DNA from: Terrisporobacter sp.
Lineage (GTDB): Bacteria > Bacillota > Clostridia > Peptostreptococcales > Peptostreptococcaceae
Length of the DNA: 35,527 nucleotides
Direction of reading: 5' to 3'
Assembly (NCBI RefSeq): GCF_017888745.1
Contig: NZ_JAGHFM010000076.1
Span: forward strand, 1-35,527
Positions 29,481 to 34,255 of this stretch are shown piece after piece. A program made the position numbers and the translations under genes. Each line of letters begins with the position of its first letter. Within the stretch, counting starts at the first letter, position 1. Below the pieces are notes generated by a model. It was not told where the DNA came from. It did not search any database and saw only the letters and a program-made list of their open reading frames with translations.

Positions 29481-29527
29481 AAAAAAACTCCTATAATATT
29501 TATAAAAAATATTATAGGAGTTTTTTT
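29481..29527. terminator. Strong bidirectional intrinsic terminator after acsV
   Basis: AAAAAAACTCCTATAATATT-loop-AATATTATAGGAGTTTTTTT. Confidence 0.95.
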
Positions 29528-29757
29528 ATGACAATAAATAATTACACTAAATTAGAAAATTATCAATGGAAGTAATTTATAAATAAAGAACATGTAAATT
29601 TAAAATTAAAAATGAAATATGTCAAGTTATGCAATAATACATAAAATAATGTATAATATTGAATTTTAATGAAATAAAATATATAAAATTAAATATTTTG
29701 ACAATTCATGTATATATTTACAACATAATTAATAATTGATAATCTTATATATATAGT

Positions 29758-29787
29758 CCAGTATAGAAGTGTTCAAAATACTGGAGG
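29758..29787 (+). promoter_or_regulatory. Possible SD-occluding hairpin upstream of the His/Cys peptide
   Basis: CCAGTAT-N13-ATACTGG (29758-29764 / 29778-29784); the right arm overlaps the first bases of the GGAGG SD (29783-29787). Confidence 0.4.
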
Positions 29788-29793
29788 TTTAAT

Positions 29794-29931
29794 ATGCTAA
29801 GAAGGAGTTTAATGAAACATCATAATCCACATATAGGTGGATGCTGCGGTAATGGTGGAGAAAACTGCTGTGGGAGCTATGACCATGAAGAACACATACA
29901 TCCATATGATCATGTTCACATTCATGCATAA
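29794..29931 (+). CDS. 45-aa His/Cys-rich peptide, putative metal-binding or leader peptide
   Basis: Manual translation: MLRRSLMKHHNPHIGGCCGNGGENCCGSYDHEEHIHPYDHVHIHA (9 His, 4 Cys as two CC pairs); GGAGG SD 6 nt upstream of ATG 29794; alternative ATG at 29812 after AAGGAG. Below the length cutoff of the ORF track. Confidence 0.72.
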   Translation: MLRRSLMKHHNPHIGGCCGNGGENCCGSYDHEEHIHPYDHVHIHA

Positions 29932-29964
29932 TAATTAAATAAGATAATCATAACTATAACCATG

Positions 29965-30021
29965 AAGGTTTATGTATTATAGATTTGTTATATCTATACA
30001 TATATAAACCTTTTATTTTTT
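29965..30021 (+). terminator. Terminator-like hairpin between the peptide gene and the binding-protein gene
   Basis: AAGGTTTAT...TATAGAT-loop-ATCTATA...ATAAACCTT, imperfect in the middle, followed by TTTTATTTTTT. Confidence 0.6.
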
Positions 30022-30073
30022 ATAAAATAAATTATATAAATTACAAAAAGTATTTTACAGGGGGAATTAATCA

Positions 30074-31099
30074 ATGTTAAAAAGTAAAGGTTTAAGAAGG
30101 GTATTAGCACTATTATCTATAGTAGGGGTAACTTTAAGTTTTGTTGGATGTTCAAATGACAATCAAAAATCTGAAACAACAAAAACAAAAGCAGAAGCAA
30201 GTAACTTTGAACCAGTAGAATTTACATATTCTGATGGAGCTAAAGATTATGATGTAAAAGTTGATAAACCTAGACAAAAAGCAGTTACATTATCCCAGTT
30301 TATGACGGAAATGTTATTGGCATTAGATTTAGGTGATAAAATGGTGGGGACAGCGCTTTTAGATAATCCAATACTTCCAGAATTTGAAGAAGCATACAAT
30401 AAAATACCAGAGTTAGAAGTAGGTGAAGGCCACTCAATATCAAAAGAAGGATTTATGGCTACAGGGGCTGACTTTGTCAGTGGATGGGATTCATCAATAA
30501 GTGAGCAGACAACAGGATCACCAGAGGAGCTTATAAAAAATGATATAACTCCATTTATGGCAAAGTCTTATTCACCAGATGCAACAGTTGAAACAGTATA
30601 CGAAGATTTTGAATTATTAGGAAAAATATTTGGAGTAGAAGATAAAGCTACAGAAGTAATAAATAAAATGAAAAGTGATATAAAAGAAGTAAGTAACAAA
30701 TTAGGTGATATAAAAGAAGAAGATAGAGTAAAAATGATGGTATATGACTCAGGGGAAAAGGATGCCATGGTAGTTGGTTCTGGTCTTGCTAATAACTTAA
30801 TAGATTTAGCTGGAGGGAATAATATATTTGGAAAAGACGCTGAAAAGCCTTATATAAATGTATCTTGGGAAAGTATAGTAGCTGAAAATCCAGAGGTTAT
30901 ATTAGTAACTGACTTTATGGCTGGACAACCAGCACAAGAAAAAATAGATTTCTTAAAGTCTCATCCTGCTCTTAAAGATGTAGCAGCAATAAAAAATGAT
31001 AAAATATATGTTGTAGGATTAGCAGATTTATCTCCAGGTGTTAGAAATCCTAAGCTTATAGAGAAAATGTATGGATATTTCTATGGAGAAAATAAATAA
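30074..31099 (+). CDS. ABC transporter substrate-binding lipoprotein (FecB/BtuF-like, TroA fold)
   Basis: 341-aa ORF with signal peptide and lipobox (LLSIVGVTLSFVGCSN); periplasmic binding-protein segments (RQKAVTLSQFMTEMLLALDLGDKMVGTA, GNNIFGKDAEKPYINVSWESIVAENPEVILVTD). Confidence 0.9.
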   Translation: MLKSKGLRRVLALLSIVGVTLSFVGCSNDNQKSETTKTKAEASNFEPVEFTYSDGAKDYDVKVDKPRQKAVTLSQFMTEMLLALDLGDKMVGTALLDNPILPEFEEAYNKIPELEVGEGHSISKEGFMATGADFVSGWDSSISEQTTGSPEELIKNDITPFMAKSYSPDATVETVYEDFELLGKIFGVEDKATEVINKMKSDIKEVSNKLGDIKEEDRVKMMVYDSGEKDAMVVGSGLANNLIDLAGGNNIFGKDAEKPYINVSWESIVAENPEVILVTDFMAGQPAQEKIDFLKSHPALKDVAAIKNDKIYVVGLADLSPGVRNPKLIEKMYGYFYGENK

Positions 31100-32181
31100 T
31101 GGATATATCAGTACAAGAAAAAAGAGGCCTTTCTAAAAAGAAAGGTTTCCTATTTTGGACAGTATTACTTATTATATTATTAGCTATTACGGTAGTATCA
31201 GCAATAGCAATAGGTAGCACATATATACCTCCTGGAGAAGTTTATAAAGTACTACTAAGTAAATTATCAAATGGAATGCTATTTGGTGATGTGGGAACTA
31301 TAATGACACAAAATATAATATGGGAAATAAGATTTCCAAGAGTGTTATTAGGGGCAATGTGTGGCGCTGGTCTTGCGCTTTGTGGAGTACTTATGCAATG
31401 TGTAACTAAAAATCCAATAGCAGAGCCTTATATATTAGGTATATCATCAGGGGCATCTTGTGGTGCTGTAGCAGTTATAGTTTTAGGTGGAATATCTACT
31501 ATGGGAATAAATAGCATAAGTACAGGTGCTTTTGTAGGTTCAATAATATCAGGAGTTCTTGTATTTGCAATAGGAACTCAAATGGGGAAGACAACTTCTA
31601 CTACGAGGTTAGTACTTACAGGTATGGCAATATCTACAATATTTTCAGCTCTTACTAATTTACTTATATATTCTGCAGATAATTCAAATCAAGCTAAAAA
31701 TGCATTATTTTGGACAGTAGGTAGTTTAGGTGGAGCGAAATGGGATGTACTATTATTACCTTTTATAGTATTAATAATAGTAATTATAGCCTCATTTATG
31801 ATGTCTAAATCTCTAGATATATTACTTTTAGGTGATGATAGTGCAATAATACTAGGAATAAATGTAAAGCTTATTAAGTCAATAATACTTATTTTAGCAA
31901 CTTTACTTACATCCTCTTTAGTTGCAATAACAGGAGCTATAGGATTTATAGGTTTAGTAGTACCACATGTATGCAGAACTATAGCAGGAAGTGACCACAA
32001 AAAATTAATAGTACCCTCATCATTAATAGGGGCAATATTTTTGATAATATCAGATATTTTTGCAAGAGGGCTTTTCCCGCCAATAGAAATACCTATAGGA
32101 ATCATAACATCATTAGTTGGTGGACCATTCTTCTTATATTTAATTTCTAAGAAAAATTATGCTTTTGGAGGAAAAGAGTAA
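31099..32181 (+). CDS. FecCD-family ABC transporter permease
   Basis: 360-aa polytopic ORF; IRFPRVLLGAMCGAGLALCGVLMQCVTKNPIAEPYILGISSGA, GAIGFIGLVVPHVCRTIAGSDH. Start overlaps the preceding stop (TAATG). Confidence 0.93.
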   Translation: MDISVQEKRGLSKKKGFLFWTVLLIILLAITVVSAIAIGSTYIPPGEVYKVLLSKLSNGMLFGDVGTIMTQNIIWEIRFPRVLLGAMCGAGLALCGVLMQCVTKNPIAEPYILGISSGASCGAVAVIVLGGISTMGINSISTGAFVGSIISGVLVFAIGTQMGKTTSTTRLVLTGMAISTIFSALTNLLIYSADNSNQAKNALFWTVGSLGGAKWDVLLLPFIVLIIVIIASFMMSKSLDILLLGDDSAIILGINVKLIKSIILILATLLTSSLVAITGAIGFIGLVVPHVCRTIAGSDHKKLIVPSSLIGAIFLIISDIFARGLFPPIEIPIGIITSLVGGPFFLYLISKKNYAFGGKE

Positions 32182-33032
32182 TGCATAAAATTCAAGTAAA
32201 AAATTTAAGATTTAGCATAGATAAGAATGAAATATTAAAAGATATATCTTTTAATGTTCCTAAGGGAAGTTTTGTAGGTATTATTGGACCTAATGGATCT
32301 GGAAAATCAACTTTATTAAAAAATATATATAGACTATATAAACCATCAAGTGGACAAATTATATTAGATAATAAAGACTTAATTCACATGAAAGATAAAG
32401 ATTGTGCAAAAGAAACTGCAGTACTTGCTCAAGAAAGTGATTCTCAATTTGACTTTACTGTAGAGCAAATAGTAAAAATGGGAAGATATCCGTATAAATC
32501 TATATTTGAAGATTACTCAAAGGAAGATCTGAATATGGTTTCAGATATGCTAAAAAAGGTTGGGCTGGACAATTATATCCATAGAAGTTTTTCAAATTTA
32601 TCTGGAGGAGAGAAGCAAAGAACTTTAATTGCGAGGGCTCTTGTACAAAATACGGATTTTCTAATATTAGATGAACCTACAAATCACTTAGATATAGGAT
32701 AGCAAATACAATTAATGGATCTAGTAAAAAGTTTAAATATAACTACGTTATCTGCTATACATGATATGAATATAGCCTCTATGTATTGTGACTATTTAAT
32801 AGTTATGAAAAAAGGGGAGATAATTGATTTTGGAAAGGTTGAAGAAGTAATAACTTCAGCTATGTTAAAAGATGTTTTTGGAGTAAATGCTTATATAGGT
32901 GTTAATCCTATAAATAAAAAACTACAAGTATCATTTATGCATACTCATGAACATATAAATGGTATTGGAGAAGATCATGTGCACGAAGATGGATTTACAG
33001 GTTTTCATAGTCATCAACATATTTGTTTATAA
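32181..33032 (+). pseudogene. FecE/BtuD-like ABC ATPase with His-rich C-terminal tail, interrupted by an in-frame TAG at 32700-32702
   Basis: Both track ORFs (32181-32702 and 32715-33032) lie in one frame; Walker A GPNGSGKST, signature LSGGEKQR and Walker B LILDEPTNHLD precede the TAG; switch region SAIHDMN follows it. Tail ...MHTHEHINGIGEDHVHEDGFTGFHSHQHICL. Confidence 0.85.
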
Positions 33033-33109
33033 TTTGTATTTATAAATAGATAGTTGAAAAACAATCCATTATTCTTGGCTTATTATTAACAATAATTATG
33101 TTTAAGTAT

Positions 33110-33138
33110 TTGACTTAACAATAATATGAGTATATACT
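33110..33138 (+). promoter_or_regulatory. Sigma-A-like promoter for cooT and downstream genes
   Basis: TTGACT (33110-33115), 17-nt spacer, TATACT (33133-33138). Confidence 0.7.
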
Positions 33139-33179
33139 TATGGTATAAGAATATAGAAAAATTTGTAAATGGAATCATG

Positions 33180-33223
33180 AAGATTTCTTATTGGCGTTAT
33201 ATTGCCTTTAGAAATCTTTTTTT
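33180..33223 (+). terminator. Intrinsic terminator in the 5' leader of cooT (possible attenuator)
   Basis: AAGATTTCT-loop (with inner GGC/GCC pairing)-AGAAATCTT followed by TTTTT; lies between the promoter at 33110 and the ORF at 33254. Confidence 0.8.
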
Positions 33224-33253
33224 GATTAGATTTATAACTAAGGGGGATTTTAT

Positions 33254-33445
33254 ATGTGTGAATCATCTGCATTTGTATTAGGTAAAGATAATAATTTGCA
33301 AAAAGTAATGGAAAATGTAGTAACTGTAGACCCGGCTGATGGGAAAGTATATTTAACAGATTTATTAGGGGACCAAAAAATAATAGATGGTTATATTAAA
33401 GAAATAAGGTTAATGGATCATAAAATAATATTAGCTCAAGAATAA
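33254..33445 (+). CDS. cooT: CooT-like nickel-binding protein
   Basis: 63-aa ORF MCESSAFVLGKDNNLQKVMENVVTVDPADGKVYLTDLLGDQKIIDGYIKEIRLMDHKIILAQE; Cys2 and size fit the CooT family; GGGGG SD. Confidence 0.8.
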   Translation: MCESSAFVLGKDNNLQKVMENVVTVDPADGKVYLTDLLGDQKIIDGYIKEIRLMDHKIILAQE

Positions 33446-33469
33446 TAATAAAAATTCGAGGTATGTCAA

Positions 33470-33886
33470 ATGATTATAGCTGTAATTGATGGAATGGGTG
33501 GTGGAATAGGTGCTCAGGTAGTTAATGCTCTTAGAGAAGAATTACCAACATATATAGAAATTTATGCTCTGGGAACTAACTCAATAGCAACTAGTGCAAT
33601 GATGAAAGCTCATGCTAATAAAGGTGCTACAGGAGAAAATGCAATAGTAGTTTCTTCTAAAAAGGCAAGTATAATTGTAGCTCCTATATCAGTTGTAATG
33701 CCAAATACAATGATGGGGGAAGTTACTAGTAAAATTAGTGAAGCTGTATCAGATAGTGAAGCATTTAAAATTCTTTTACCTATTATGCCAGAAAATTTTG
33801 AAGTAGTAGGAGTTGAAGGAAAACCATTGTCTTTATTAATAAAAGATACAATAAAAATAATAAAAAAAGAATTTAATATAAAATAA
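33470..33886 (+). CDS. DUF3842 family protein
   Basis: 138-aa ORF; AVIDGMGGGIGAQVVNALRE N-terminus and IVVSSKKASIIVAPISVVMPNTMMGEVT. Confidence 0.8.
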   Translation: MIIAVIDGMGGGIGAQVVNALREELPTYIEIYALGTNSIATSAMMKAHANKGATGENAIVVSSKKASIIVAPISVVMPNTMMGEVTSKISEAVSDSEAFKILLPIMPENFEVVGVEGKPLSLLIKDTIKIIKKEFNIK

Positions 33887-33899
33887 GGGGGATTTAAAA

Positions 33900-34214
33900 A
33901 TGTTAAATAAAAATATAGCTTTATTCCATGAGGGGCATCATCACCATCATGATCATGTACATACTGATTGTGGATGTGGGGGAAGTTGCGGACATGCTCA
34001 TGAAGAAGATCAAATGAGCAAAGATGAAAAAACTTTAAATATATTATTAGTTCATTGGGTGAATCATAACGAGTCTCATGAAGAAGGATTTAGAGAATGG
34101 GTGTCTAAAGCTAAAGAAATGGGAAAAGAAGAATCAGCAGAATATATTGAAAAAGCAATAGAAGCTATGCAAAAAGCTAACGAAATGTTATTAGAAGCTA
34201 AGAAGCATATGTAA
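33900..34214 (+). CDS. His/Cys-rich N-terminal metal-binding protein with helical C-terminal domain
   Basis: 104-aa ORF MLNKNIALFHEGHHHHHDHVHTDCGCGGSCGHAHEED... followed by a helical domain (LNILLVHWVNHNESHEEGFREWVSKA); GGGGG SD. Confidence 0.85.
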   Translation: MLNKNIALFHEGHHHHHDHVHTDCGCGGSCGHAHEEDQMSKDEKTLNILLVHWVNHNESHEEGFREWVSKAKEMGKEESAEYIEKAIEAMQKANEMLLEAKKHM

Positions 34215-34223
34215 TTATAAATT

Positions 34224-34255
34224 AGCAAAGAAGATGAAAATTTTCTTTGCTTTTT
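34224..34255 (+). terminator. Intrinsic terminator closing the metal cassette
   Basis: AGCAAAGAA-N10-TTCTTTGCT followed by TTTT. Confidence 0.85.

Follow-up and report, generated by a model that had tools for sequence, protein, structure and literature searches.

FecBCD-type nickel import is already known from Helicobacter. According to the report on NiuBDE of Helicobacter pylori and CeuE-FecDE of H. mustelae (PMC5140060), these ATP-binding cassette (ABC) transporters import nickel for urease and hydrogenase. In Rhodospirillum rubrum, CooC, CooT and CooJ are encoded beside carbon monoxide dehydrogenase (CODH); mutants in cooT, cooJ or cooC require added nickel, and CooT binds nickel with a dissociation constant of 9 nM, in which Cys2 takes part (PMC6006190). 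In Clostridium autoethanogenum the nbp/hp pair, i. e. CooT and a small His-rich protein, is encoded directly downstream of the Wood-Ljungdahl pathway cluster, and loss of the CooT gene or of hp led to lower levels of AcsB and CooS1 (PMC10230548). Here we analyzed a comparable locus of Terrisporobacter sp. (nearest named relatives T. mayombei and T. petrolearius). The window of 35,527 nucleotides is the whole contig NZ_JAGHFM010000076.1 of a draft genome in 417 contigs. 3' of acsV and a hairpin it encodes, in this order, a His/Cys-rich peptide, a Peripla_BP_2 lipoprotein, a FecCD permease, an ABC ATPase, CooT, a DUF3842 protein and a protein of 104 aa (Hp104), followed by a second terminator. 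Judged by sequence comparison, these genes quite probably represent two adjoining nickel modules: a FecBCD-type importer and a CooT-DUF3842-Hp104 set for buffering and delivery.

The importer consists of a substrate-binding protein (SBP), the Peripla_BP_2 lipoprotein (30074..31099, + strand like all features described here; PF01497, 98.5 bits), the FecCD-family permease (31099..32181; PF01032, 318.8 bits) and a FecE/BtuD-type ABC ATPase recognized by profile matches (32181..33032), the gene of which is interrupted by a nonsense codon. The three are encoded together in an order conserved in relatives, which places them among the FecBCD-type (type II) ABC importers and confirms the siderophore/B12 class proposed in the preliminary description of this DNA. 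The closest solved structure to the SBP (AlphaFold 2 model, pLDDT 84.9) was 4n01 from Veillonella (E 9e-70, TM 0.79/0.91). Two features mark the importer. The first is a His-rich C-terminal tail of the ATPase (HTHEHINGIGEDHVHEDGFTGFHSHQHICL; 32940..33029), which is kept in every close ortholog with a complete ATPase gene and absent from outgroup ATPases. The ATPase of L089, a metagenome-assembled genome (MAG), has no visible tail; its gene meets the contig end before the tail position, and its translation ends with RSEER at the contig edge near 9403, apparently by reading on into sequencing adapter (AGATCGGAAGAGC). The second is an insert with His120 of the SBP (30431-30433), found by alignment in 33/33 rows of close orthologs, whereas none of the seven untailed SBPs has a His there. 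From this pattern His120 is a candidate contact for the metal or a chelate.

CooT (33254..33445; PF10133, 84.3 bits, cut-off 27) matched the solved CooT 6fan with its profile (E 8.5e-23), and Cys2 (33257-33259), invariant across the CooT alignment, is present. The CooT sequences begin with MCES(A/S/T)A(Y/F) at acetyl-CoA synthase (ACS) loci (L120, L123, L124, L126, L127) and mostly with MCEANVY elsewhere (L109-L111, L113-L117, L121). The DUF3842 protein (33470..33886; PF12953, 174 bits) is a small, compact domain of Rossmann-like fold in which GGGIG and LGTN motifs are conserved; a fold search gave generic Rossmann matches only (TM ~0.5 or lower) and no close solved relative. Hp104 (33900..34214) has a His/Cys-rich N-terminus and a conserved, probably helical domain. 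It matched no Pfam or NCBIfam model, and its homologs occur at acsB loci in other families (L120, L123, L124, L126, L127), where W53, H56, H60 and W67 are kept. Compared with the His+Cys background of the window (3.3%), the peptide (P=1.5e-9), the ATPase tail (3.6e-7) and Hp104 (5.9e-8) are enriched to an extent that is not due to chance.

H. pylori CeuE has been solved with nickel, and the SBP superimposed on this structure with TM 0.60/0.67; at about 18% identity (E 2e-6), and with many other proteins closer, the two are not orthologous. By these comparisons NiuBDE is a functional precedent and not an ortholog. Moreover, H. pylori niuDE is a two-gene operon without a binding protein, whereas here the binding protein is encoded alongside, and the accessible part of PMC5140060 does not mention a His-tailed ATPase. 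With the R. rubrum set (PMC6006190) the locus shares CooT with its Cys2, a small His-rich protein and CooC beside CODH. Like CooJ, Hp104 is a small protein with a His-rich segment, encoded beside CODH genes, a likeness of working and not of membership: its His stretch is N-terminal, and it matched no solved protein and no CooJ up to E 1. The R. rubrum set has no counterpart of DUF3842, and an importer is attached only here. The arrangement directly downstream of the Wood-Ljungdahl cluster is that of nbp/hp in C. autoethanogenum, for which PMC10230548 mentions neither an importer nor DUF3842. From the position and the homolog in L123, rather than from the published hp sequence, we infer that hp is a homolog of Hp104.

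The preliminary description had taken all these genes for a single dedicated cassette. This did not hold in the census of 71 family genomes and a class sample of 291 genomes. CooT and acsB co-occurred in exactly the same 43 of the 71 family genomes. In the class sample CooT was present in 31 genomes, among them all 15 with acsB; 24 of the 31 also had CooS, and in 25 DUF3842 lay within 600 bp of CooT. CooT-DUF3842-Hp followed acsV at nearly all loci examined. A close SBP ortholog (73-85% identity, window included) was found in 22 family genomes, 21 of which had acsB (Fisher 2.5e-5, a value inflated by relatedness); the only one lacking acsB was G031, an assembly 75% complete. The position of the importer varied: between acsV and CooT in Terrisporobacter, behind Hp in L035, L037, L039, L041 and L048, or elsewhere in the genome. 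L056 and L057 carry CooT-DUF3842-Hp with no importer, and G069 and G070, of the same genus, have no close importer ortholog. Since the CooT triad occurs without the importer and the importer away from the triad, they are two modules that move independently and not one fixed cassette. DUF3842 itself was found in 96 of the 291 class genomes, most of which have no CooT, which rules out a CODH-specific role. Because seven of the CooT genomes in the class sample had no CooS over the cut-off, CooT may serve other nickel enzymes too. A promoter-like site lies between the two modules (33110-33138), albeit shuffled sequence contains such sites at least as often.

That nickel is the substrate we infer from the gene neighborhoods. 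In nine Peptostreptococcaceae genomes, window included, the importer adjoins acsV or Hp104 of the CODH/ACS cluster. To find orthologs outside the family, the SBP alignment was scanned against 85,462 species genomes. In five Clostridium genomes (L080, L083, L084, L086, L087) hypB, the gene of a large flavin/Fe-S oxidoreductase and hypA precede the importer; two Fusobacterium genomes (L093, L094) have it directly 3' of ureABCEFGD. Pfam searches on L084 and L093 confirmed HypA, HypB/UreG-type GTPases, UreC, UreE and UreD. In the tree the urease-linked importers branch apart from the Hyp-linked ones, which fall within or next to the Peptostreptococcaceae set. Ten of the 12 genomes outside the family with close orthologs had CooS, [NiFe]-hydrogenase or urease; together with the family, a nickel enzyme was present in 31 of 34 such genomes, the opposite of a set found mostly where nickel enzymes are missing. 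The more distant untailed importers (36-46% identity) had no nickel neighbors among the identified open reading frames, not all unmatched neighbors having been annotated. Clostridium thermobutyricum carries the importer in two tandem copies, behind which a Cys/His repeat protein of 75 aa is encoded (HCNCGCEEHKHA...; L090:9064-9291).

The place beside CooT-DUF3842 is also taken by other transporters. In G070, Hp104 is directly followed by NikA (631 bits, cut-off 393) and by Opp1B, a nickel/cobalt permease (498 bits, cut-off 380). In G052 NikA lies about 5 kb behind Hp104, and the FecBCD importer is elsewhere in the genome. L114, L116, L117, L121 and L122 have a CbiM-PDGLE fusion, a CbiQ-type protein and an ATPase beside DUF3842-CooT, which is the layout of NikMNQO. 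L109 and L110 have a more distant FecBCD-type importer beside the CooT locus, and L113 one of the Opp/Nik type. NikABCDE and NikMNQO thus hold an equivalent place, although their transporter superfamilies differ from the FecBCD-type trio. Together with the CODH/ACS, HypA/HypB and urease neighbors, this gives good support to the nickel substrate proposed in the preliminary description.

Several observations weigh against this interpretation. Strict complementarity of nikA and the importer was not found across the family; the two often co-occur, so that there is no simple mutual replacement. For about half of the orthologs in the family, no nickel gene is linked to the importer within the stretch read. 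Two importer-bearing MAGs showed none of the three nickel enzymes sought, one of them having hypA/hypB. His tails also bind zinc or cobalt. For the second module, a C. autoethanogenum CooT deletion mutant grew without defect in minimal medium, whether or not nickel was added (PMC10230548). Finally, the ATPase frame of the genome studied here carries a stop codon, whereas it is open in the 25 relatives compared.

The last point concerns the state of the importer in this genome. An in-frame TAG (32700..32702; LDIG*QIQLMDLV), directly past the Walker B motif, replaces a Tyr codon that is invariant (Tyr in 25/25 relatives compared). The His-tailed ATPase noted earlier is therefore encoded including its tail, but not as one open reading frame. 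The codon is either a nonsense allele or a sequencing error; unless it is the latter, this genome probably has an inactive importer or one powered by another ATPase. The His/Cys-rich peptide of 45 aa (29794..29931) points in the same direction. It is indeed present and enriched, yet it is not a complete protein but the truncated remnant of a metal-binding-like protein of 84-104 aa (HHNPHINGCCGNGGENCCGSHDHEDH...HDHNHEDGFTGTHSHDH), which is encoded upstream of the SBP in many relatives; after the stop codon the remnant 'DNHNYNHEGL' is still readable in the window. The C-terminal half of the full-length protein and the ATPase tail share the motif HEHxNGxGHDHxHEDGFTGxHxH. In other Terrisporobacter (L032-L034) only degenerate traces of the peptide are left, and other genomes of the genus have lost it or the entire importer (L056, L057). 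The importer genes could thus be decaying pseudogenes here, with CooT-DUF3842-Hp104 alone functional. We regard this as somewhat more probable than not, even though the SBP and the permease are still intact (82-87% identical to those of relatives) and the single base may be an error in the draft. It is compatible with nickel import and delivery by the family as a whole.

Cobalt is the next candidate, taken up as ion or chelate to make the corrinoid used by the iron-sulfur protein and by other B12 enzymes. Cobalt is required by acetogens, and Co2+ is bound by His-rich sequences. Two findings on gene context tell for it and so against nickel: cbiMN or cbiMNQO adjoins the importer in L037, L039 and L046, and at four loci (L037, L039, L041, L046) the importer stands beside cbi genes or a cobalamin riboswitch. 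In L037, L041 and L046, however, the riboswitch stands between the importer and the cbi or two-component genes that follow it, on the strand of those genes; because of this location it governs them and not the importer. No cobalamin riboswitch was found upstream of the importer in the window or at the loci searched, and the urease and HypA/HypB neighborhoods have no cobalt logic. We therefore consider cobalt uptake unlikely.

Still less likely is uptake of corrinoids (B12, cobinamide), heme or a ferric siderophore with only incidental proximity to nickel genes, although the FecBCD/BtuCDF family membership and weak matches of the SBP to the profiles of BtuF and of heme and siderophore binding proteins speak for it. 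The scores with all specific NCBIfam models were far under the cut-offs (BtuF 29.8 vs 234, BtuC 250.7 vs 461, IsdE 61 vs 299, F420-0 133 vs 392), and three distinct nickel contexts together with a conserved His tail are not likely to be a coincidence. A corrinoid substrate, which the preliminary description had named as the main alternative, is weakened by the absence of the usual riboswitch; with no BtuF or BtuC match over the cut-off it was dropped as the leading interpretation. Import of zinc, or of divalent metals in general, by such a His-tailed system is highly improbable: His-rich stretches are common among zinc transport proteins, but the SBP belongs to the Peripla_BP_2 and not the ZnuA class, and the neighbors are nickel enzymes, not zinc genes.

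Some further features of these loci deserve mention. In L037 and L041, CbiQ/CbiO was considered and rejected for the 229-aa and 474-aa genes next to the importer; they encode a two-component system (L037:3712-5822; L041:4165-6290, there under the cobalamin riboswitch). A similar histidine kinase lies beside nikA (L069:13505-14932). Possibly, the two-component system is a metal-sensing regulator. Between acsV and cooT, L065 has two radical-SAM-like proteins of 288 and ~320 aa (L065:8044-10680; a Pfam model matched the second only). The pair is also present in L037, L039, L048, L058, L062-L064, L066 and L068-L070, in most cases with an LplA-type ligase of 271 aa, and absent from the window. An ABC transporter was rejected for these genes, since a radical-SAM protein and a lipoate ligase are among their products; they resemble a split lipoyl synthase set and could serve lipoylation of the GcvH of the cluster.

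In the window, the Wood-Ljungdahl cluster has the order cooS, cooC-like, fhs, fchA, folD, metV (assigned by position), metF, lpd, a second cooC-like gene, acsD, acsC, acsE, acsB, gcvH, acsV. As described before, the genes discussed here follow on the same strand between two hairpin terminators, all of which were recovered. The first (29481..29527), behind acsV, is a long perfect inverted repeat (AAAAAACTCCTATAATATTT...) that was not among the hits of the terminator scan; the second (34224..34251), behind Hp104, was found by the scan. An inverted repeat (TCCAGTAT-N13-ATACTGGA; 29757-29785) covers the ribosome-binding site of the 45-aa peptide. As a conserved operator it was rejected, not being among the best repeats in the leaders of relatives, and a search of the leader for NiCo or other known RNAs found none. 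A second CooS of the source genome is encoded outside the window (G000:C104:2695-4458; model positions 32-621, 795 bits). The plasmid collection searched gave no match.

The most likely course of nickel import and delivery is the following. The lipoprotein would capture Ni2+ or a nickel chelate, and the permease and ATPase would carry the nickel inward, where the His-rich cytoplasmic tail of the ATPase probably catches or gates it. The tail and the small His-rich protein encoded upstream would buffer nickel at the membrane. CooT, DUF3842 and Hp104, along with the cluster's CooC-like ATPases, would then bring it to the nickel sites of CODH and ACS. The importer is a movable unit, set beside CODH/ACS, Hyp or urease genes according to lineage, and other nickel importers occupy the same place beside CooT-DUF3842.

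More tentatively, the importers of anaerobic Firmicutes and Fusobacteria may constitute a nickel-importing clade of their own within the FecBCD type, in which the ATPase catches nickel with its own His tail and hands it straight to the chaperones of particular enzymes (CooT-DUF3842-Hp at CODH/ACS, HypA/HypB, UreE). In the literature searched, mostly without subscription journals, we found no report of a His-tailed importer clade or of its CODH/ACS, Hyp and urease links, and no work on DUF3842. Whereas FecBCD-type nickel import as such is known, the clade and its gene links thus appear to be new. If the proposal is true, nickel import and delivery would be physically coupled. The route of nickel to CODH and ACS in acetogens is poorly known, and the importer is now a named candidate. 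Sequence families label such an importer only as iron-siderophore, heme or B12 type; the ATPase tail HEHxNGxGHDHxHEDGFTG and His120 of the SBP could serve as markers to recognize it. DUF3842, an unstudied family, becomes tied to CooT. This would bear on the metal supply of gas-fermenting acetogens and on how the urease and hydrogenase systems of gut anaerobes are annotated.

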